Origin: Chloroflexota bacterium
GTDB lineage: Bacteria; Chloroflexota; Anaerolineae; Promineifilales; Promineifilaceae
DNA length: 33,508 nt
NCBI GenBank assembly: GCA_003696605.1
Contig: RFGV01000028.1
Location: forward strand, 1 to 33,508
Direction of reading: 5' to 3'
The translations under genes and the position numbers were made by a program. The notes under the pieces were generated by a model. The model was given only the letters and a program-made list of their open reading frames with translations, was not told the DNA's origin and searched no databases. Positions 6,226-23,286 of this stretch are shown one piece after another. Numbering within the stretch: position 1 is the stretch's first letter; every line of letters begins with the position of its first letter.

Positions 6226-6242
6226 ATTCTGGAGGTTAGTTG

Positions 6243-6596
6243 ATGATTTATCATATTATTCAAAAAGTCGCATGGGAAACGGCCGTTGCTGCTGGTAGCT
6301 ACCAGCCTGCTTCCCTGCACAATGAAGGATTCATCCACTGCTCCACCCGTGATCAGATTCTTTTCCCGGCCAATGAGCTTTATCGCGGCCAGACTGACCT
6401 GATGTTATTATGTATTGATACAAACCGGGTCACTGCGCCTGTTGTGTATGAGGATTGCTACGAAACTGGCATGGAATTCCCGCATATTTACGGGCCACTG
6501 AATTTAGACGCAGTTGTTCAGGTAGTGGATTTTCCACCAAATGATGATGGTACATTTACTTTGCCCGATTCGTTGCCTTTTGATATGGCAAACTAA
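6243..6596 (+). CDS. DUF952 family protein
   Basis: 117 residues from ATG 6243, which has a GGAGG site 7 bases upstream; an in-frame TTG at 6240 is less likely. The sequence follows the DUF952 pattern throughout: an IYHI start, W-x-x-A, SLHNEGFIHCST, a G-x-x-DLMLLCID block, then FPHIYGPLNLDAVV. The conserved His and Cys in FIHCST and the His in FPHIYGPL are all present, but no enzymatic role is established for the family. It is a small soluble protein with no signal peptide. The efp terminator separates it from efp, and its last 41 bases overlap the convergent Hsp70-like gene. Confidence 0.85.
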   Translation: MIYHIIQKVAWETAVAAGSYQPASLHNEGFIHCSTRDQILFPANELYRGQTDLMLLCIDTNRVTAPVVYEDCYETGMEFPHIYGPLNLDAVVQVVDFPPNDDGTFTLPDSLPFDMAN

Positions 6597-8946
6597 ACAC
6601 CTGACGTACAGTCACTTCGGGAGCAGTCGGAAGCAAGGGTGATGATTTGGTGCTTTTGGTGGGCTTAAAACGGCCGTTATTCACCCGCACGCATCCTTTT
6701 TCCGTCACCAGCCAGGTTCTCAGTTGGTCTGAAACAGGCACTATACCAACCACAGGTGAACGCCGGGCAATTACAGAACGTCCCTTGCTGTTAGGCTTTG
6801 GGGGATGAGGAATCCAGGCTGGTTTTAAAGAACGGCCGTAGCCATCTTCCGTTACCAACAGCAACTCATCCTCTTCTGCTGCTACCACACTCCCAACCAC
6901 ACGATCCGTTTCCCCACAGTTCAAAATCTGTGTGCCCCCATGCCGTATTGCCGAAACCGAATATCGTACCGCTCGCCCCGATTTAGTTACAGCCAATAAC
7001 ATACCAACCTTGTCCACACCATACAAATTCACCACAATGCCAGGTAATGGCGTATCAAATTTATACGGAATCGGCATTTCAATATTTGCCTTGAGAATAT
7101 CGGTTGGATACGGCCGTGCCAACCCCGTCGAAGTAACCAACAACACATGCTCCCGTGCCACCAAATCTGACCACCGGGCAACAGCACACACTCGCTCCTT
7201 CTCCCCCATAAAATGTACTTGTCGCAAACTCAATTCGGCTGAATCCAAATCCATCAACTGCCTCGGCGTCACCAGTAAAAAGCGGTAATGTGTAGTGACC
7301 AGCAACAATTTCTCATCCATATCAGCCACCAGACAAGGCAAAGCAGACTCAGCCAACTGGAGCTCAGACCACAAAAGAGTATCAGAAAGTGCCTGATCGG
7401 AAGCAAAGGAAACGGCCGTGGCCAACCCATTCGCCGTAAGTGCCACCATTGCCCTCTGGTCAGTCTCCACCACCCCACCCGATTCCACCAGCCAAATCCG
7501 CCGTTTCAACATCTCCAATTCCACCACACGCGCCTTCGGCGGAACCGAGAGTTCCGATTTTGGCAAACGCAAATCCTCAGGCCGATACACCGGCATATCC
7601 AGCTTCCCCTCTTCCAGCAAGTACCCAACCACACTTAACCCCGCGGTAACACTGCTAAACGTGTCCACACTCTTGACCCGCGCTGCACCAAACTTGCGAC
7701 ACAACATCTCATGAAACACTGGAATCTGCGCCGACCCACCCGTCCGAATCACAGCATCAATCTCATCTGCTCGCAAACCAGAAAGCCCCACCACCTCATC
7801 CACATGAGCATCAATTGCCACAATCTCATTTCGAATAATCCGCTCAAATTCCGTACGCGTAATAAATTCCCGCACATGAAAACCCGGCCCATCCAGCAAA
7901 ATCTCTGCCCCCCGCTTCTCCGACAAACGCCGCTTTGCCTGCTCCACAACATCAAACATCTGCAACGCATAATTATTCTGCACCAGACTAATCAATGCCT
8001 CAATCTGATATCTTTTTTGAGCTGTACGCGCTATCTCCTGCAATATTTGGCGATTTTCGGCCGTTTGCAACGTCAAAACAGATTGCCAATCTGAAAACGC
8101 ATCATAAATCCAGCGTGGAATCGTCAGTTGCCTGTGCCGCGACCCATACGTAGAACCTTCTCCAAAATGACGAGGCAACTTCGTCCGTACAATTTTTTGA
8201 TCAAACACATCCCCAGCCACCGGAACACCCCCCGTTGCCAACACACGATATTCTCCGCCCCCCAATCTCATAACTGTAATATCCAGCGTTCCCCCACCAA
8301 AATCAAAAACCAATACATTTTGCGCCCGTTCCAATTCCATGGAATAACGAAACGCCGCCGCGACCGGCTCATACTGTAAAAAAACCTCCTCATAACCAGC
8401 CTTAAATGCCGCCCTCAACAAACGTGCCTGAGCCAGTCGATCTTGTTCATCCGAATGACCAAAATGCACTGGCCGCCCCAAAACAACCTGCTTCAACTCC
8501 CGCCCCAACAACTTTTCTGCCCGCACCTTAGTCACATACAAATACAAAGCAATCAAATCTTCCAAATAATAAAAATCCTGCCCCACCACTGTACCCACAT
8601 AAGACTTGTCACGTAAGCCCGTCTTAATTGACAAAAACAACCGACCGGGAGAAAGAACATCTATATACGCATAAACATCTGTGACGTAATACATATCCCC
8701 CCCAAAAACCTCCAACTCCCCAATCCAAACCTTCTTCAGCTTGACAGCCCGGCCAATATTTTGAGCAAAGTATAGATTTATTGCTTCCCTGCCAATAGAA
8801 ACACTCTGTTCAGTTGTAATGTAAAGTGCAGTACGAGCCACCTGTGGATTCTGATTCATTGGATCAAGTGGCAAAACTCGAACAGAACGGCCGTCATACA
8901 CCGCCATCCCCGAATTCGTCGTCCCAAAATCCATACCCACAATCAT
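6556..8946 (-). CDS. Hsp70-like ATPase fused to a GyrA-type C-terminal beta-pinwheel
   Basis: 796 residues from ATG 8946, preferred because AGG lies 6 bases upstream; TTG 8961, GTG 8958 and ATG 8949 are in frame. Residues 1-450 form an Hsp70/actin-fold ATPase: phosphate-1 DFGTTNSG (6-13), phosphate-2 FDFGGGTLDITV (214-225) and adenosine motif IRTGGSAQIP (about 400-409). No Hsp70 substrate-binding domain follows. Instead, from about 480 there are repeats of the type LLLVT-x-x-G-x-x-R starting near 498, 547, 600, 648, 694 and 743, spaced 46-53 residues. This is the blade spacing and motif of the six-bladed DNA gyrase A C-terminal domain. No canonical QRRGGKG GyrA box is visible. Function is unknown. 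The gene lies just beyond the terminator of the bc operon. Confidence 0.85.
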   Translation of the reverse strand: MIVGMDFGTTNSGMAVYDGRSVRVLPLDPMNQNPQVARTALYITTEQSVSIGREAINLYFAQNIGRAVKLKKVWIGELEVFGGDMYYVTDVYAYIDVLSPGRLFLSIKTGLRDKSYVGTVVGQDFYYLEDLIALYLYVTKVRAEKLLGRELKQVVLGRPVHFGHSDEQDRLAQARLLRAAFKAGYEEVFLQYEPVAAAFRYSMELERAQNVLVFDFGGGTLDITVMRLGGGEYRVLATGGVPVAGDVFDQKIVRTKLPRHFGEGSTYGSRHRQLTIPRWIYDAFSDWQSVLTLQTAENRQILQEIARTAQKRYQIEALISLVQNNYALQMFDVVEQAKRRLSEKRGAEILLDGPGFHVREFITRTEFERIIRNEIVAIDAHVDEVVGLSGLRADEIDAVIRTGGSAQIPVFHEMLCRKFGAARVKSVDTFSSVTAGLSVVGYLLEEGKLDMPVYRPEDLRLPKSELSVPPKARVVELEMLKRRIWLVESGGVVETDQRAMVALTANGLATAVSFASDQALSDTLLWSELQLAESALPCLVADMDEKLLLVTTHYRFLLVTPRQLMDLDSAELSLRQVHFMGEKERVCAVARWSDLVAREHVLLVTSTGLARPYPTDILKANIEMPIPYKFDTPLPGIVVNLYGVDKVGMLLAVTKSGRAVRYSVSAIRHGGTQILNCGETDRVVGSVVAAEEDELLLVTEDGYGRSLKPAWIPHPPKPNSKGRSVIARRSPVVGIVPVSDQLRTWLVTEKGCVRVNNGRFKPTKSTKSSPLLPTAPEVTVRQVFSLPYQKATNRAK

Positions 8947-8959
8947 CATCCACCTCACC

Positions 8960-8992
8960 AAACAAAAACGCCCGGCCTCAAAAGACCGGGCG
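8960..8992 (-). terminator. Intrinsic terminator of the cytochrome bc operon
   Basis: On the leftward strand CGCCCGG (8992-8986) and CCGGGCG (8975-8969) form a 7-bp GC-rich stem with a 10-base loop, followed by TTTTTGTTT. It lies 26 bases after the diheme cytochrome c stop codon and just before the Hsp70-like gene. Confidence 0.9.
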
Positions 8993-9018
8993 TATTCAAC
9001 TCCATACCCTAACTCTGC

Positions 9019-9867
9019 TTACTCACCACTTCCCAACAAGAACGTCAGCAAGTCAGCCATATCCTGCGGATTCGCAGCCATCCGCTCCGCAAAATTCCCA
9101 GGCATTGCACTCGGTGATGTACACGGCCCAGTGGGACAGTCAGGCGCAATAAACGCATTCGGATCCAAAATCGACTCATATACATACTGCGCTGCCGACT
9201 TCCCTTCTTCACGTGTTGCCCCTACTTCAGCAATCTCACCCAGCCACGGGCCAACCGCATTAGAACCCTCCTGCGTCACATCCCCATGGCAACCAATACA
9301 ACCATACGACAAATATAACGCCTCACCATTTGCAGCATCACCTTCAGGAAATTCAGCCAGGAAATCATCCACAGACTCCGGCCAATCAAACGTAATATCA
9401 GGCTGGCTGCACAATTCCTCACTTTCCCAGTTCAGAACAAAAGCAACCACATTATCAATTTGATCATCCCGCATAGGACCACCAAAACGCTCCGACCAGG
9501 TCGGCATCGCTGTACCCACACGACCAGCCGCAACAGTTTGCTTGATAAACGCCTCCTTAGAGCCTACCCAATTCATTGCCTCCAGACGTGCAGGTCTATC
9601 ACCACATACAAGGCCTTTGGAATTCAGCGGCAAACCCTTGCAACCAATTTGATTACCAGCCGTATCATAACATTCCTTAGCCTCACCATTCACGCCATGG
9701 CAAGTTGCACAGTTATTGGCGAAAATTTCCGCACCCGTCTCAATAGAACGACCTACTGCCGCTCGGGAGAAAGCCTCCATACGAGCCGGCTCACGCAGTG
9801 CCGCAAATCCCAATATCATCATCGTCAGCATAAACGCGACGGTTCCAATGACAACTTTTACTTGCAT
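9019..9867 (-). CDS. Membrane-anchored diheme cytochrome c of the bc complex
   Basis: 282 residues. An N-terminal hydrophobic segment (about 4-24) probably serves as an uncleaved anchor, placing the domains outside the membrane. There are two c-type domains: heme 1 CATCH (53-57) with likely axial M121 (TAMPTW), and heme 2 CIGCH (190-194) with likely axial M255 (SAMPGNF). Domain 1 has a Cys-containing insertion (C66, C76, C88) after the heme site. C153, C244 and C249 are further cysteines outside the heme motifs. As the third gene after Rieske and cytochrome b, it takes the position of cytochrome c1 and should pass electrons from the Rieske centre to a soluble carrier or oxidase. Confidence 0.93.
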   Translation of the reverse strand: MQVKVVIGTVAFMLTMMILGFAALREPARMEAFSRAAVGRSIETGAEIFANNCATCHGVNGEAKECYDTAGNQIGCKGLPLNSKGLVCGDRPARLEAMNWVGSKEAFIKQTVAAGRVGTAMPTWSERFGGPMRDDQIDNVVAFVLNWESEELCSQPDITFDWPESVDDFLAEFPEGDAANGEALYLSYGCIGCHGDVTQEGSNAVGPWLGEIAEVGATREEGKSAAQYVYESILDPNAFIAPDCPTGPCTSPSAMPGNFAERMAANPQDMADLLTFLLGSGE

Positions 9868-9911
9868 AAGCAGCTATCCTCTCAATGGACTTGAATTAAC
9901 ACATGCCCTAA

Positions 9912-9939
9912 AAGGTGGAGGTTTTTCCACCTCCACCTT
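9912..9939 (-). repeat. Intercistronic hairpin between cytochrome b and cytochrome c genes
   Basis: AAGGTGGAGG (9912-9921) and CCTCCACCTT (9930-9939) form a perfect 10-bp stem with an 8-base loop. On the transcribed strand it is followed by only a short TTTTAGGG, so it may be a leaky terminator or an RNA-processing or stability element within the operon. Confidence 0.6.
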
Positions 9940-9951
9940 CCTAAACCAAAC

Positions 9952-11643
9952 CTAGCAATTCTTGTTTACAAAGCGGCATTCCTCTTCATAATTGGAATCC
10001 GCATGACGATACTTCACCCAATCCAGATCAACCAACATTTTATCCGGATTATTCGGGTCAACCGCTTCAAAGTGTAAAACCAATTTTCGCAGGTTAGGCT
10101 GCACATCTTCAATAATTAGCTTGGCAACCGGATCGGGCATTGCCGAATCGGTAAATGAATTCCCCCATTTACCTTCACCTGTCACACGGCATTCCTCAAA
10201 TTCCGGATTCCCAGTCAGTGTACAGCTATGCAAAGCCAGCGCCTCATCAAACTTCTCCAGCGCCCGGGTCAAATGCGGCCGATCAGCAATCACCTGACCA
10301 GGCTCATAAGTTCCCGGCAACAATTCATCAAAGGGAACGCCCAACAATACACTCGGCCCTTCTTGAGGCGCGATTTCTTGTGCTACTTCCCGTTCCGGAG
10401 AACTTTGTACTCGGAATTCCGGAGTACCCATCCAGTTAGACACCAGCATAAAGGCAATAAACAGCATTGCCACACTCAAGCCCAACCGGCGATCAGCATA
10501 ACGACGGCTCTTGCCTACTTCAAAGTAAGGCATCACAATGAAAGCCACCATCAACAGAGGAATAAAGCCAACCACCAGCGTTTTATCGGCCAACTTTAGC
10601 CATCCCTGCGACCAAGAAAGATACCAGGGTGCCACTACGTGCAAAGGTGTCACAATGGGGTCAGCATGATGCTCCAGCGGCGCATCCCAGAACCACAAGG
10701 AGCCAGCCGTGAGGAAAAGAGTCACCAAAGCGGTCCACATCAACTCGCTGGTTAGAATATCCGGGATAAAGTAAGTACGCTCATTCTTGGGCACACGCTT
10801 GGCTGTATCCTCGCCAATCTCTTCACGGCCAGGTGGTAATGAAAGCCCATGCAATACAACTTTGTAATAATGAACAAAGAAGAAAATACCCAACAGCAAG
10901 GGCATTAACAATACATGGAAAAGGTACCAACGTAAAAGACCGCCAGCCCCCAAAGTGGGTGCACCTTGCAAAATCAGCAATACATTCTTGTTGATGACCT
11001 CAGCGGGAATAATGCCCGGCAGCGGGGATGGCGCAGCCTCAGCACCACTAATAAACACAGTCAATGCCCAGTAAGACAATTGGTCCCAGGGTAACAAATA
11101 ACCGCTAAAACTTAAGAGCAGTGTAAGCACCAAAAGGATCATACCCGTAGCCCAGGTAAATTGGCGTGGCTTTTTATAGCTGCCGGTAATAAATGTCCGC
11201 AACATATGTAAGGCGACTGCCACAACCATTACCTCAGCACCCAGTCGGTGCATATTCCGCATCAATTGTCCCAAAGGCACGTTGCTCAAGATATTCCACA
11301 TATTGGAATAAGCAACAAGCGGGCTGGGGGTATAGAAAATCATCAAGATAATGCCTGTGATGGTTTCCCAAACAAACATGAATGTGGATAACCAACCCAG
11401 GCGGAATGTTGGGTAAATGTGTGTTACTTCCGTATGGTAGAAGCTAGGGCGAATATGCAGCCAAAAACTGTCGGCATGAGGGCGCAAGCGAGGATTCGGC
11501 CGTCTTGGCTCATCACCTCGCAAGGCAGCACGAATATCACTAATATTCATACCGGCGGTCACGCGCTCGACGATTTCATCGGCTTTGACCAGAACGGCCT
11601 GCTTCAACCCCATTTCTCTGACTTGATCAACAAATGTTGTCAT
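9952..11643 (-). CDS. Cytochrome b (b6-like) subunit of the quinol:cytochrome c oxidoreductase, with long C-terminal extension
   Basis: 563 residues, much longer than usual (about 380-430). The polytopic core (about 75-405) has bis-heme ligands H132/H146 and H243/H258. The second pair is 15 apart, as in b6-type proteins, rather than 14 as in mitochondrial cytochrome b. The Qo-site PEWY motif is replaced by APWY (338-341), removing the usual Glu. The last ~155 residues are hydrophilic, with four cysteines (474, 485, 556, 563), no CxxCH and no recognised domain. A roughly 70-residue charged segment precedes the core. AAGGAG sits 8 bases before ATG 11643. It oxidises quinol (probably menaquinol) with the Rieske protein encoded 84 bases upstream. 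Confidence 0.95.
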   Translation of the reverse strand: MTTFVDQVREMGLKQAVLVKADEIVERVTAGMNISDIRAALRGDEPRRPNPRLRPHADSFWLHIRPSFYHTEVTHIYPTFRLGWLSTFMFVWETITGIILMIFYTPSPLVAYSNMWNILSNVPLGQLMRNMHRLGAEVMVVAVALHMLRTFITGSYKKPRQFTWATGMILLVLTLLLSFSGYLLPWDQLSYWALTVFISGAEAAPSPLPGIIPAEVINKNVLLILQGAPTLGAGGLLRWYLFHVLLMPLLLGIFFFVHYYKVVLHGLSLPPGREEIGEDTAKRVPKNERTYFIPDILTSELMWTALVTLFLTAGSLWFWDAPLEHHADPIVTPLHVVAPWYLSWSQGWLKLADKTLVVGFIPLLMVAFIVMPYFEVGKSRRYADRRLGLSVAMLFIAFMLVSNWMGTPEFRVQSSPEREVAQEIAPQEGPSVLLGVPFDELLPGTYEPGQVIADRPHLTRALEKFDEALALHSCTLTGNPEFEECRVTGEGKWGNSFTDSAMPDPVAKLIIEDVQPNLRKLVLHFEAVDPNNPDKMLVDLDWVKYRHADSNYEEECRFVNKNC

Positions 11644-11727
11644 TTATCTTACTCCTTATTTCCCAGTTCGCTCCTCAACCTTTCTGCCAAATTGAACCTC
11701 AAGAAAAGTCAAGGGGTTTTTCAGAAG

Positions 11728-12381
11728 TTATGGACAGCTGTCAGTGAAACTGCAGAGCAATGTCTGCGATGGGCCATTCTTTTTGTCGCCTGTGTCGATA
11801 CGCAGAAATGCGGTATCAGGCGGCAATTCCAGTGGCATCCAGAAATTGTCTTTCAATTCCGATGATGCCAGTACAGTTTGCTTATCTGCCGCCAACGCAT
11901 CAACCCGAAAACGATCCAGTGTTCGAGGAGCAGGTGACTCGATACGACGGCCATCTAACCGATACTTAGAACCATGGCACGGGCACTCAAACCGATTATT
12001 TGCCGGAGTCCAAGCATAAATACAACCAAGATGTGTACATACTTTATAAATTGCGGCCACACCCTTGATCTCGCTATCTTCGTCCGGTGCCCGATACATC
12101 CGCTCTTGTCCTTGCGGATTTGTAGTATCAAGATTCACTAACCAGAAGCGACCTTCCGGGAAATTCACCGGCTCGCCATTCACTTCTGGCAGGGAATCTA
12201 CTGGCAGCACAAACGCACCACCAAACTCACCTTCACGAAAACGCGGGATCAGGTACCAGATTAACAACCCGGCGGCCTGTGCCGTGAACAATGCCATCGA
12301 CGCGCCCCAAATGTAATACAGGAACTCGCGCCTGGTGATACCGGTGCCGGTTACTCCGGCTTCAACTGCTACATTTGCCAT
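11728..12381 (-). CDS. Rieske [2Fe-2S] protein of the bc complex
   Basis: 217 residues. N-terminal TRREFL followed by a hydrophobic helix (about 22-45) resembles a Tat-dependent uncleaved anchor, as is normal for Rieske proteins folded before export. Cluster ligands are C115 and H117 in CTHLGC (115-120), and C133 and H136 in CPCHGS (133-138). C120 and C135 would form the usual disulfide. A 30-residue tail follows the cluster fold. It is the first gene of the bc operon and accepts electrons from quinol at the Qo site for transfer to the diheme cytochrome c. A Rex-like site and a tRNA terminator lie in its upstream region. Confidence 0.96.
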   Translation of the reverse strand: MANVAVEAGVTGTGITRREFLYYIWGASMALFTAQAAGLLIWYLIPRFREGEFGGAFVLPVDSLPEVNGEPVNFPEGRFWLVNLDTTNPQGQERMYRAPDEDSEIKGVAAIYKVCTHLGCIYAWTPANNRFECPCHGSKYRLDGRRIESPAPRTLDRFRVDALAADKQTVLASSELKDNFWMPLELPPDTAFLRIDTGDKKNGPSQTLLCSFTDSCP

Positions 12382-16444: not shown

Positions 16445-17671
16445 TTATTCGAAGCGTAAGGCGTCAATGGGGTGCAGGGATGCGGCGCGGGAGGCGGGAT
16501 AGATGCCGAAGAAGAGACCGACGGCAACAGAGAAGCCGACGGCAAGGGTAATGGCGTTGAAGGTAACGGCCGTATTTAGTTCCGGCACAGCCAGATTGAC
16601 TGCCTTTGCTCCTACCAGCCCCAACAAAATGCCTAACAAACCGCCAATTAGAGCCAGTAATATTGCTTCTGTGAGAAATTGGCTGAGGATGTCCCGTTTT
16701 TTGGCTCCAACTGCTTTACGCAGGCCAATTTCTCGTGTCCGTTCGGTAACGGAAACGAGCATAATATTCATGATGCCAATGCCTCCTACCAGCAAGGAAA
16801 TGCTGGCAATTGCACCCAGAAAGAGGGTAAGAACGGCCGTTACCGCCCCAAACGACTCTAAAAAGTCTTGTTGAGTCAAAATGAGAAAATCATCCTCATC
16901 ACGAAAGGTGATATTGTGCAACTGGCGCAATGTATTCGCGACATCAATCAATACATCATCCACTGCTTCACTATCCACAGCTTGCACCAAAATAAAATCC
17001 ACTCGCAAACGGCCGCTTTTGGGATCACGCAAATTGTAAAGACGCTCTTGCGCCGTAGTCAGTGGCACAACAACCAGATCATCCTGGCTGCCAAACACAC
17101 CGCCACCTTTCGGCTCCAAAATACCGACAACCCGAAAGTTTACACCCCGAATCTTGATATCTGTTCCGATCGGGTCCACATCTGGCGGAAAAAGGTTTTT
17201 TACCACCTCTGACCCCAGAACGGCAACACGAGAACGGCCGTTATAATCCTGCTCCGTAATAAATCGCCCGCGCGCCACCTTATAACCACGTAACGGCCCA
17301 TAATCCGGCGTTGTCGCCCGTATAGAACCCTGATACACCGTTCCCTGATACCGTAACTCAGAACTCCGAATCACCATAGGCGCAACCGCCACCACATTCG
17401 GCACCAACACCGGATCTGCCAGTGCCCTGGCGTCATCCATCGTCAATGTCGAAGTTGCCCGCCCCGGATCATCCGTAGGCAATACAAATACCAGGTTCGT
17501 TCCCAATCCAGCAAACTGATCAGCCACAAAGCGCGTGACGCCATCCCCAATAGCCAGCAAAGTGATCACAGCCGCCACACCAATCATAATCCCCAACATT
17601 GTCAGGGCTGCTCTCAGTTTATTCGCTCGTAGCGAATCCAGTGCAATTCGTATGTTCTCACTAATATTCAT
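16445..17671 (-). CDS. MacB/FtsX-type ABC transporter permease (second copy)
   Basis: 408 residues from ATG 17671; the frame is open further upstream, but that stretch overlaps the first permease and lacks family similarity. Four membrane helices follow the MacB plan: one near 20-42, a large extracytoplasmic domain (about 45-285), then three C-terminal helices. The conserved motif VGGIGIMNIMLVSVTERTREIGLRKAVGAK connecting to the last helices is present and ends at the typical PIDALRFE. It starts 2 bases after the stop of the first permease (TAGAAATG), so translational coupling is likely. The two permeases are paralogues, presumably forming a heterodimer with the ATPase at 18933. Confidence 0.92.
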   Translation of the reverse strand: MNISENIRIALDSLRANKLRAALTMLGIMIGVAAVITLLAIGDGVTRFVADQFAGLGTNLVFVLPTDDPGRATSTLTMDDARALADPVLVPNVVAVAPMVIRSSELRYQGTVYQGSIRATTPDYGPLRGYKVARGRFITEQDYNGRSRVAVLGSEVVKNLFPPDVDPIGTDIKIRGVNFRVVGILEPKGGGVFGSQDDLVVVPLTTAQERLYNLRDPKSGRLRVDFILVQAVDSEAVDDVLIDVANTLRQLHNITFRDEDDFLILTQQDFLESFGAVTAVLTLFLGAIASISLLVGGIGIMNIMLVSVTERTREIGLRKAVGAKKRDILSQFLTEAILLALIGGLLGILLGLVGAKAVNLAVPELNTAVTFNAITLAVGFSVAVGLFFGIYPASRAASLHPIDALRFE

Positions 17672-17673
17672 TT

Positions 17674-18915
17674 CTACTCGTACCGCAATGCCTCTATTGG
17701 ATTCAACGCCGCCGCCCGCGTGGCCGGATAAACACCAAACAATAATCCCACACTGGCTGAGATGGCAATGGCCCCCATAACGGCCGTCCAGTCCACCGTC
17801 GGTTGCAATGTATCCGACAACCCAGAAATAATCCGCGTGCCAGCCATGCCCAGCAACAAGCCAATCAAACCACCAGTTACAGCCAACGTAACCGCTTCCA
17901 CCAAAAACTGCCATAAAATATCATGCCGCTTGGCTCCGACCGCTTTACGCAAGCCAATCTCCCGTGTTCGTTCAGTCACGGACACAAGCATAATATTCAT
18001 AATACCAATCCCCCCCACCAACAGCGAAATACCAGCAATAACGCCCAAAAATATGGTTAAAACCCCGGTAATCTGGCCAAACGCTGATACCAGCTCTTCC
18101 TGACTGACAACGGTAAAATCATCCTCGTCCCGAAAGGTAATATTATGTGTTTCCCGCAAAGCCAGTTGAATTTCGGCAATTGCTGCTTCCTGGCGCTCTT
18201 CATTAATGACCTGTGCGTAAATCAAGTCCACCCGTAACTTGCCATCCGGTCGCCGTGCCGGAAAAAGGCGACGCTGGGCAGTTGTAATAGGAATCAATAT
18301 CAAATCGTCTTGATCATTAAAGCCAGAGCCACCTTTTTCTTCCATTAACCCAATGACGCGAAAGTTAATGTTGTTGATTTTGATGTTTTCTCCAATGGGG
18401 GGCTCTCCATTGGGAAATAGTTCTTCGTAAACAGTTTGTCCTAACACAGCCACACGGGCGTTGGTTGTAACATCCTGCTCAGTAAAGAAGCTGCCAGCAA
18501 CAGGAAAGAAATTGCGAACTTGAGGGAAATCAGGGGTTGTGCCGGTGATGTTTGTGCGTACTTCCTGCCCGCCTCGGGTAACGGTGGCAAAACGGCCGTA
18601 TTCTGGCACCACTGCTATCACATCCGGCACAACAAACGGATCCGACAAGACAGCCACATCCTCATCCGTCAAACCCAACCCACCAGCACGTCGTGGCCCC
18701 TGCTCCGGTGACAACTGCCCCGGAATAATAAACAACAAGTTATTACCCAAATCCTCAAACTCACCCGTTACCACCTGCTCTACTCCACGCCCCACAGAAA
18801 CCAGCGTAATGACAGCTGCCACCCCGATGATAATTCCCAACATCGTTAGCAACGAGCGCAGCTTGTTGGCAGCCAACCCATCCAGCGCCATCCGGAAATT
18901 CTCGGTCAGGTTCAT
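17674..18915 (-). CDS. MacB/FtsX-type ABC transporter permease (first copy)
   Basis: 413 residues from ATG 18915 (GAGGGG 7 bases upstream); a GTG at 18921 is in frame. Same architecture as the second copy: N-terminal helix after NKLRSLLTMLGIIIGVAAV, a periplasmic-type domain containing the TTPDFPQVRNF and FRVIGLMEEKGG blocks, then three helices ending NPIEALRYE. MacB-type proteins usually carry the ATPase in the same chain; here it is separate (18933), as in LolCDE-like and many Gram-positive exporters. It starts 17 bases after the ATPase stop codon. Confidence 0.93.
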   Translation of the reverse strand: MNLTENFRMALDGLAANKLRSLLTMLGIIIGVAAVITLVSVGRGVEQVVTGEFEDLGNNLLFIIPGQLSPEQGPRRAGGLGLTDEDVAVLSDPFVVPDVIAVVPEYGRFATVTRGGQEVRTNITGTTPDFPQVRNFFPVAGSFFTEQDVTTNARVAVLGQTVYEELFPNGEPPIGENIKINNINFRVIGLMEEKGGSGFNDQDDLILIPITTAQRRLFPARRPDGKLRVDLIYAQVINEERQEAAIAEIQLALRETHNITFRDEDDFTVVSQEELVSAFGQITGVLTIFLGVIAGISLLVGGIGIMNIMLVSVTERTREIGLRKAVGAKRHDILWQFLVEAVTLAVTGGLIGLLLGMAGTRIISGLSDTLQPTVDWTAVMGAIAISASVGLLFGVYPATRAAALNPIEALRYE

Positions 18916-18932
18916 AGGCACGCCCCTCTAAT

Positions 18933-22269: not shown

Positions 22270-23286
22270 TTAGAAGTCAGGCACACTCCGTTTCAAAATG
22301 TGCAATTCTGACAATGTACGCCCCGCCCCAATAACAGTACATGCGATGGGATTATCAGCCACATAAGCCGGAACACCTGTTTCGCGCGTAATTAGCGTAT
22401 CTATCTCTCGTAGCAAGGCACCACCACCAGTCAAAGCCATTCCTCGGTCAATAATATCCGAAGATAATTCCGGTGGCGTTTTGGCTAATACGGCACGGAT
22501 CACATTGACAACAGCTGATAACGGTTCTGCCAGGGCCTCAACAATTTCACTGGTACGTACAGTAATCGTCTTGGGGAGTCCAGCAATTTGATCACGCCCT
22601 TGAACTTGCATTTCCAGTTCTTCTTCCAGCTCAATAGCTGACCCAATTTTAATTTTGATGGATTCGGCCGTTGGCTCACCAATCACAAGATTATATTTTT
22701 TACGAATGTAATTGATGATAGCCTCATCCAAATGAACTCCACCCACACGCACCGATTCAGCACACACGATACCATTCATCGAAACAACGGCCGCTTCTGT
22801 CGAGCCACCACCCAAATCCACCACCATATTCCCCGTTGGTGTGCCAATTGGCAAACCAGCCCCAATCGCTGCCGCCAGTGGTTCCGGAATCAAATGCACC
22901 TCACGCGCCCCTGCCGTCAACGCCGCTTCTCGTACCGCCCGTCGCTCCACACTAGTTACACCATAAGGCACACTAATAATAACCACCGGCTTCCGCAAGC
23001 GAAAACGACCAGTTACCTTGCCGATAAAATACTCCAGCATACCCTGGGTAACATAAAAGTCAGCAATAACACCATCCCGCAAGGGACGCATTACTTCGAT
23101 CTCTTCCGGAGTACGGCCGTACATCTCCTTTGCCGCGCGGCCCACTTCCACAATCTTAATCTTGTCTCCATCCTCGCTAAACGCAACCACAGACGGCTCT
23201 TGCAAAACAACACCACGATTCTGGTCATAAACCAGAATATTCACCGTCCCCAGGTCAACAGCAATATGCGGAGTAAAAATTGCCAC
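22270..23286 (-). CDS. mreB: Rod-shape determining actin homologue MreB
   Basis: 338 residues from GTG 23286, two bases after the atpC stop. MreB polymerises under the membrane and guides the elongasome. The actin-fold motifs are complete: phosphate-1 [12 protein letters not shown] (9-20), the connect motif with [14 protein letters not shown], phosphate-2 [15 protein letters not shown] and adenosine motif ALTGGGALL. The length is normal. It has no mreC or mreD beside it and is instead the last gene of the F1 ATP synthase cluster. Whether it is co-transcribed or has its own promoter inside atpC is not visible. Confidence 0.96.

Follow-up and report, generated by a model that had tools for sequence, protein, structure and literature searches.

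Hsp70s work by linking a single ATPase to a peptide-gripping domain of a single kind. The gene studied here, which lies in a 33,508-nucleotide stretch of Chloroflexota DNA analysed as a whole ("the window"), raises the question of what such an ATPase does when the domain attached to it is instead a wheel of the type with which gyrase wraps DNA, and whether that wheel still works on DNA. The anatomy is near certain: a YegD-like Hsp70 ATPase joined to a six-bladed GyrA-type β-pinwheel (Table 1). In the open-access literature, we found no paper joining Hsp70 with the GyrA C-terminal domain (CTD).

Gene structure and genomic context

The coordinates of the gene were correct in the initial annotation, but the gene is read on the minus strand; over this interval the other strand is full of stops, and the reading frame of the fusion runs from 8946 down to 6556, with alternative starts at an in-frame ATG three bases earlier and at a TTG at 8961. 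The start codon follows about 20 nucleotides after a terminator-like hairpin, upstream of which lies a Rieske/cytochrome b/cytochrome c gene set (9019–12381). The hairpin sets the cytochrome genes apart from the fusion gene; no sigma-70-like promoter was found between the two. At the other end, a convergent DUF952 gene (6240–6596, plus strand) shares 41 bases, at its own 3′ end, with the end of the fusion gene, and a DUF952-like gene adjoins the fusion in a few relatives as well. Apart from this convergent gene, at a few loci, no neighbour of the fused genes is conserved, so that operon context was rejected as a guide to function; in the loci read, no conserved neighbour points to a client for the fusion protein. 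Elsewhere in the window (16445–18921, minus strand), two ABC-permease-type genes lie in tandem with overlapping frames; by eye they resemble FtsX/MacB, and an ATPase gene and a gene for a membrane-fusion-like protein lie beside them.

Table 1. Positions of the fusion gene, its parts and related features; positions refer to the window unless a locus is named.
Feature	Residues	Position	Strand	Basis or remark
Whole gene, Hsp70 ATPase–pinwheel fusion	796 aa	6556..8946	(−)	Same-length homologues in relatives
YegD-like Hsp70 nucleotide-binding domain	1–447	7606..8946	(−)	Alignment to DnaK 2v7y, domain models
Linker	448–494	7465..7605	(−)	Conserved stretch xVNLxLLxRRI at residues about 475–485
Six-bladed GyrA-type β-pinwheel without GyrA box	495–785	6592..7464	(−)	Profile, structure matches, box and loop-arginine analyses, shuffles
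Blade-5 loop (PKPNSKGRSVIARR)	716–729	6760..6801	(−)	PNxKGK in relatives
Terminator-like hairpin and T-run		8968..8993	(−)	Between cytochrome genes and fusion gene
Box-bearing stand-alone pinwheels (L127, L128, L132–L135, L137–L139, L141, L142, L145, L116, L117)		L116, 7601–8671; L117, 5854–6942		

The Hsp70 ATPase domain

The N-terminal half matches the Hsp70 family model PF00012 (E 6e-32, 111 bits, above the cut-off of 20.6), and the YegD-like NCBIfam model PRK11678 aligns over its whole length to residues 1–438 (E 1e-49). At 169 bits, however, the latter match stays well under the curated equivalog cut-off of 331, and on these scores we class the ATPase as a relative of YegD and not as a PRK11678 equivalog. 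The phosphate-1, phosphate-2 and adenosine motifs that had been recognised in the N-terminal region are borne out both by the PF00012 match and by an alignment to DnaK (2v7y), in which the catalytic residues correspond to D6, K108, E193, D215 and T220, all of them invariant across 19 relatives. The models of DnaK, HscA and PF00012 match the ATPase region only; because no Hsp70 model extends past that region, the protein has no Hsp70 substrate-binding domain, as had been supposed. It resembles YegD, which also has no such domain, and has all catalytic residues in place, but carries in addition a pinwheel about 290 residues long; from the canonical chaperone DnaK it differs in having a GyrA-CTD-like tail instead of the substrate-binding domain.

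Hsp70 and actin have a common fold, and the protein could on that ground be an actin-like scaffold, with the ATPase domain polymerising and the pinwheel decorating or capping the filament. Part of the ATPase domain does match PF06723 (MreB; E 8e-12), but that match is confined to the shared phosphate-2 region (residues 169–254), the Hsp70/YegD match (1e-49) is far stronger, and the genome has an MreB-like gene of its own, recognised by eye, at 22270–23286. We consider such a scaffold very improbable.

The C-terminal pinwheel

The blade motif [LIVMAW][LIVMA]{2}T-x-x-[GY] occurs six times, always within the tail, with its threonine at residues 504, 551, 605, 654, 699 and 748; in 20,000 shuffled tails it is found at most three times, with a mean of 0.09. 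The initial annotation was thus right in counting six repeat units, although their spacing is 45–54 residues and not 46–53, and the arginine that it had closing each LLLVT-x-x-G-x-x-R unit is not general: it is absent from unit 1, and the sequence in unit 2 is T-T-H-Y-R.

Taken alone, the fusion sequence matches the GyrA model TIGR01063 modestly (E 2e-6), and PF03989 (DNA_gyraseA_C) gives 13.6 bits, below its gathering score of 27. The family is clearer: all 19 related tails match TIGR01063, and a profile made from them finds, above threshold in the PDB, GyrA/ParC CTDs only, the best match (E 2e-19) covering the full domain, which confirms the assignment of the tail to this type. The structure model of the tail, built from three sequences, is of low confidence (pLDDT 47, pTM 0.49); with this model, the best Foldseek matches are all GyrA/ParC CTDs (E 6e-9), and VIA-align scores the same domains at a Z of 11–15 and the next fold at 3.7, with the structural matches spanning residues 495–785. 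A full-length prediction (pLDDT 40) was set aside. Profile, Foldseek and VIA-align agree on a predicted GyrA-like pinwheel, so that the initial reservation, that the tail might take some other fold, fell away. A generic WD40 or RCC1 propeller is ruled out by the restriction of the PDB profile matches to GyrA/ParC and by the low Z of the best non-pinwheel fold.

As in the GyrA CTD (PF03989), the blades number six and follow the same order; the tail differs in having no GyrA box and in having mostly lost the loop arginines (see below), and what precedes it is an Hsp70 ATPase, not the topoisomerase core found in DNA gyrase subunit A. The genome has a complete GyrA of its own elsewhere (L006), with its QRRGGKG box intact. 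Since GyrA/ParC CTDs are what the tail resembles most, and the genome has this GyrA, the protein could be a regulator directed at gyrase or topoisomerase, the pinwheel mimicking the GyrA CTD and docking on gyrase or a gyrase partner for the ATPase to remodel; the complex of the ParC CTD with MukB (4mn4) is an example of protein contacts made by a domain of this kind. Yet we noticed no link with gyrA, gyrB or topoisomerase genes at the loci that were read, and the fusion is patchy within the class, though gyrase is nearly universal. A role of this kind seems to us rather improbable.

Conservation and distribution

Our in-depth search covered Chloroflexota, with one close-relative scan and plasmid records beyond it. 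The core fusion, whole or split at contig ends, is present in 41/52 genomes of the window's family (those without it being G004, G007, G011, G017, G018, G029, G031, G033, G355, G362 and G366) as well as in another family of the class Anaerolineae (L149, L163); the named relatives from the close-relative scan are Anaerolineae bacterium CH7 and Chloroflexi bacterium Ww301. Because the fusion occurs at full length in many independent genomes, and because the genome has a separate intact GyrA, an assembly artefact, a concern raised in advance, is ruled out. Both halves are under purifying selection, with a dN/dS between close relatives of 0.05–0.08 for the ATPase half and 0.13–0.22 for the tail.

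No plasmid record in PLSDB covers 80% of the fusion protein; among the matches listed, only the ATPase part is reached, with a best coverage of 55%. A phage or defence origin was rejected, since the PHROGs matches reach the Hsp70 part only and no PADLOC model matches the fusion protein. Some Hsp70-containing conflict systems have an Hsp70 domain without the peptide-binding part, as the fusion does (PMC7159879), but those systems centre on GTPases, and gyrA goes unmentioned in that paper; around the fusion gene, no conflict-system neighbours were seen.

Loss of the GyrA box and of the loop arginines

The canonical GyrA box, Q(R/K)RGG(R/K)G, had been described as missing from the tail. Both the box and the loop analyses agree, and the absence extends to the whole set of Hsp70-linked pinwheels: the box is found in 0/50 (34 fused, 5 partial, 3 divergent fusions and 8 split, counted after removal of identical ORFs only, so that a few rows may nearly duplicate others, and the partial ones may be missing some of the pinwheel domain), against 29/32 GyrA/ParC. 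Many Anaerolineae also have, outside gyrA, stand-alone pinwheel proteins of 350–440 residues with a short N-terminal helix, and among those read, all 14 without an Hsp70 link carry a box such as QRRGGMG (Table 1). The Hsp70 link goes with loss of the GyrA box. The same division is seen in the starred branch (97/93), which unites GyrA with the box-bearing stand-alone pinwheels and excludes all Hsp70-linked ones. The stand-alone proteins appear to wrap DNA autonomously and to be comparable with Borrelia Gac, a GyrA-type pinwheel at work outside topoisomerase (PMC10127594). The likeness of Gac to the fusion goes as far as that; Gac is made from inside gyrA and binds DNA, whereas the pinwheel of the fusion is diverged, comes from a separate gene and is fused to an ATPase.

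In Salmonella GyrA, the CTD requires arginines in the blade loops to bind DNA, and single alanine mutants lose binding or bind more weakly (PMC7210945). We infer from blade-loop position that the residues scored here, which were taken from the GyrA of the window's own genome, correspond to these arginines. Position by position, arginine is found in 29–32 of the 32 GyrA/ParC sequences and in 0–6 of the 34 fused tails. The arginines of blades 1–4 and 6 are mostly gone, and at blade 6 the position is D or E in 22/34; blade 5 has kept K or R in 30/34, its loop being the only one in which a basic residue is retained in most family members. Overall charge was of no use as a sign of lost DNA binding, since the groups overlap and the linked tails, with a net charge of −0.3 per 100 residues, lie near GyrA at +0.8.

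Even without a canonical box, pinwheels of the ParC type bind DNA weakly, and loss of the box alone is therefore compatible with DNA binding. The initial annotation had proposed a DNA- or nucleoid-associated chaperone; in such a protein the pinwheel would bind DNA, perhaps bent or crossed as in ParC, and bring the ATPase to the chromosome. Such a role draws on the fold of the tail, which is that of a DNA-wrapping domain, on the basic blade-5 loop, and on Gac, a stand-alone GyrA CTD that acts as a DNA-binding repressor (PMC10127594); because this fold has several modes of DNA binding, as ParC-type domains and Gac illustrate, a DNA-associated role keeps some probability. The proposal is nevertheless weakened by the loss of the box from all 50 linked pinwheels, when unlinked stand-alone ones of the same class keep it, and by the loss of most of the other loop arginines, single substitutions of which are enough to impair binding in GyrA (PMC7210945). 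We judge it unlikely.

Split and second fusion forms

In eight genomes from four other families, the Hsp70 and the pinwheel are adjacent genes on the same strand (L080, L082, L083, L153, L154, L159, L161 and L164). The ATPase of this split form is YegD-like and tailless and lies just downstream of the pinwheel gene, the product of which has a helical segment (coiled-coil-like by eye) and then the GyrA-type pinwheel; the gene order is thus opposite to the domain order of the fusion. At L083 the partner passes PF03989, with 33.5 bits against the gathering score of 27. One gene separates pinwheel and ATPase at L080 (4460–5686), encoding a 409-residue protein without a Pfam match. The split two-gene form and the box-bearing stand-alone relatives are new with respect to the initial annotation. 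In the ATPase tree, one group (99/98) holds 24 members, 22 of which are fused to or adjoin a pinwheel, and the remaining two are second copies, from genomes in which another copy is linked.

A second, diverged type of Hsp70–pinwheel fusion is found at L077 (2541–4904), L078 (2499–4877) and L079 (2387–4705). The ATPase domains of these three fall in a different part of the tree, in another Hsp70 lineage than the main fusion, but their pinwheels group with those of the main fusion (97/94); either the tail may have moved between Hsp70 lineages, or the grouping may be a long-branch artefact.

In several families there are also YegD-like ATPases extended at the C-terminus by about 150–170 residues (L155, L165–L177); no Pfam match was found in the extension tested (L166).

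Proposed mechanism

The loss of key DNA contacts suggests that the DNA-wrapping part of gyrase may have been reused here for another job. We give about an even chance to what seems the best reading, that the protein is not a DNA-wrapping chaperone but a platform whose binding of protein is gated by ATP. The pinwheel would act as the effector half of the Hsp70, where the substrate-binding domain usually sits, and binding and hydrolysis of ATP by the Hsp70 domain would alter the hold of the pinwheel on a partner protein, contacted through the rim of the pinwheel or through the conserved segment of the linker; a DNA-wrapping wheel would in this way have been converted into a platform for protein. 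Protein binding had been offered earlier as one of two options, and it is now the favoured one, if evenly balanced, given the count of 0/50 for the box in linked pinwheels and the loss of most other loop arginines. There is precedent among the structural matches themselves: the ParC CTD, which shares the fold of the tail, serves as a protein-binding surface for MukB (4mn4), although ParC is a topoisomerase subunit and the tail of the fusion sits on an Hsp70 ATPase.

More tentatively, and at somewhat less than an even chance, we see in these genes a previously undescribed ATP-driven module, its two parts paired repeatedly, both by fusion (in two Hsp70 lineages) and as a two-gene neighbourhood, in which a wheel that lost its DNA contacts may have become the effector of an Hsp70. 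A natural swap of the peptide-gripping domain for a gyrase wheel would be a clean test of how far the Hsp70 switch can be transferred, and the linked wheels without the box, set against the unlinked wheels with it in one bacterial class, offer a comparison for the repurposing of a DNA-binding fold.
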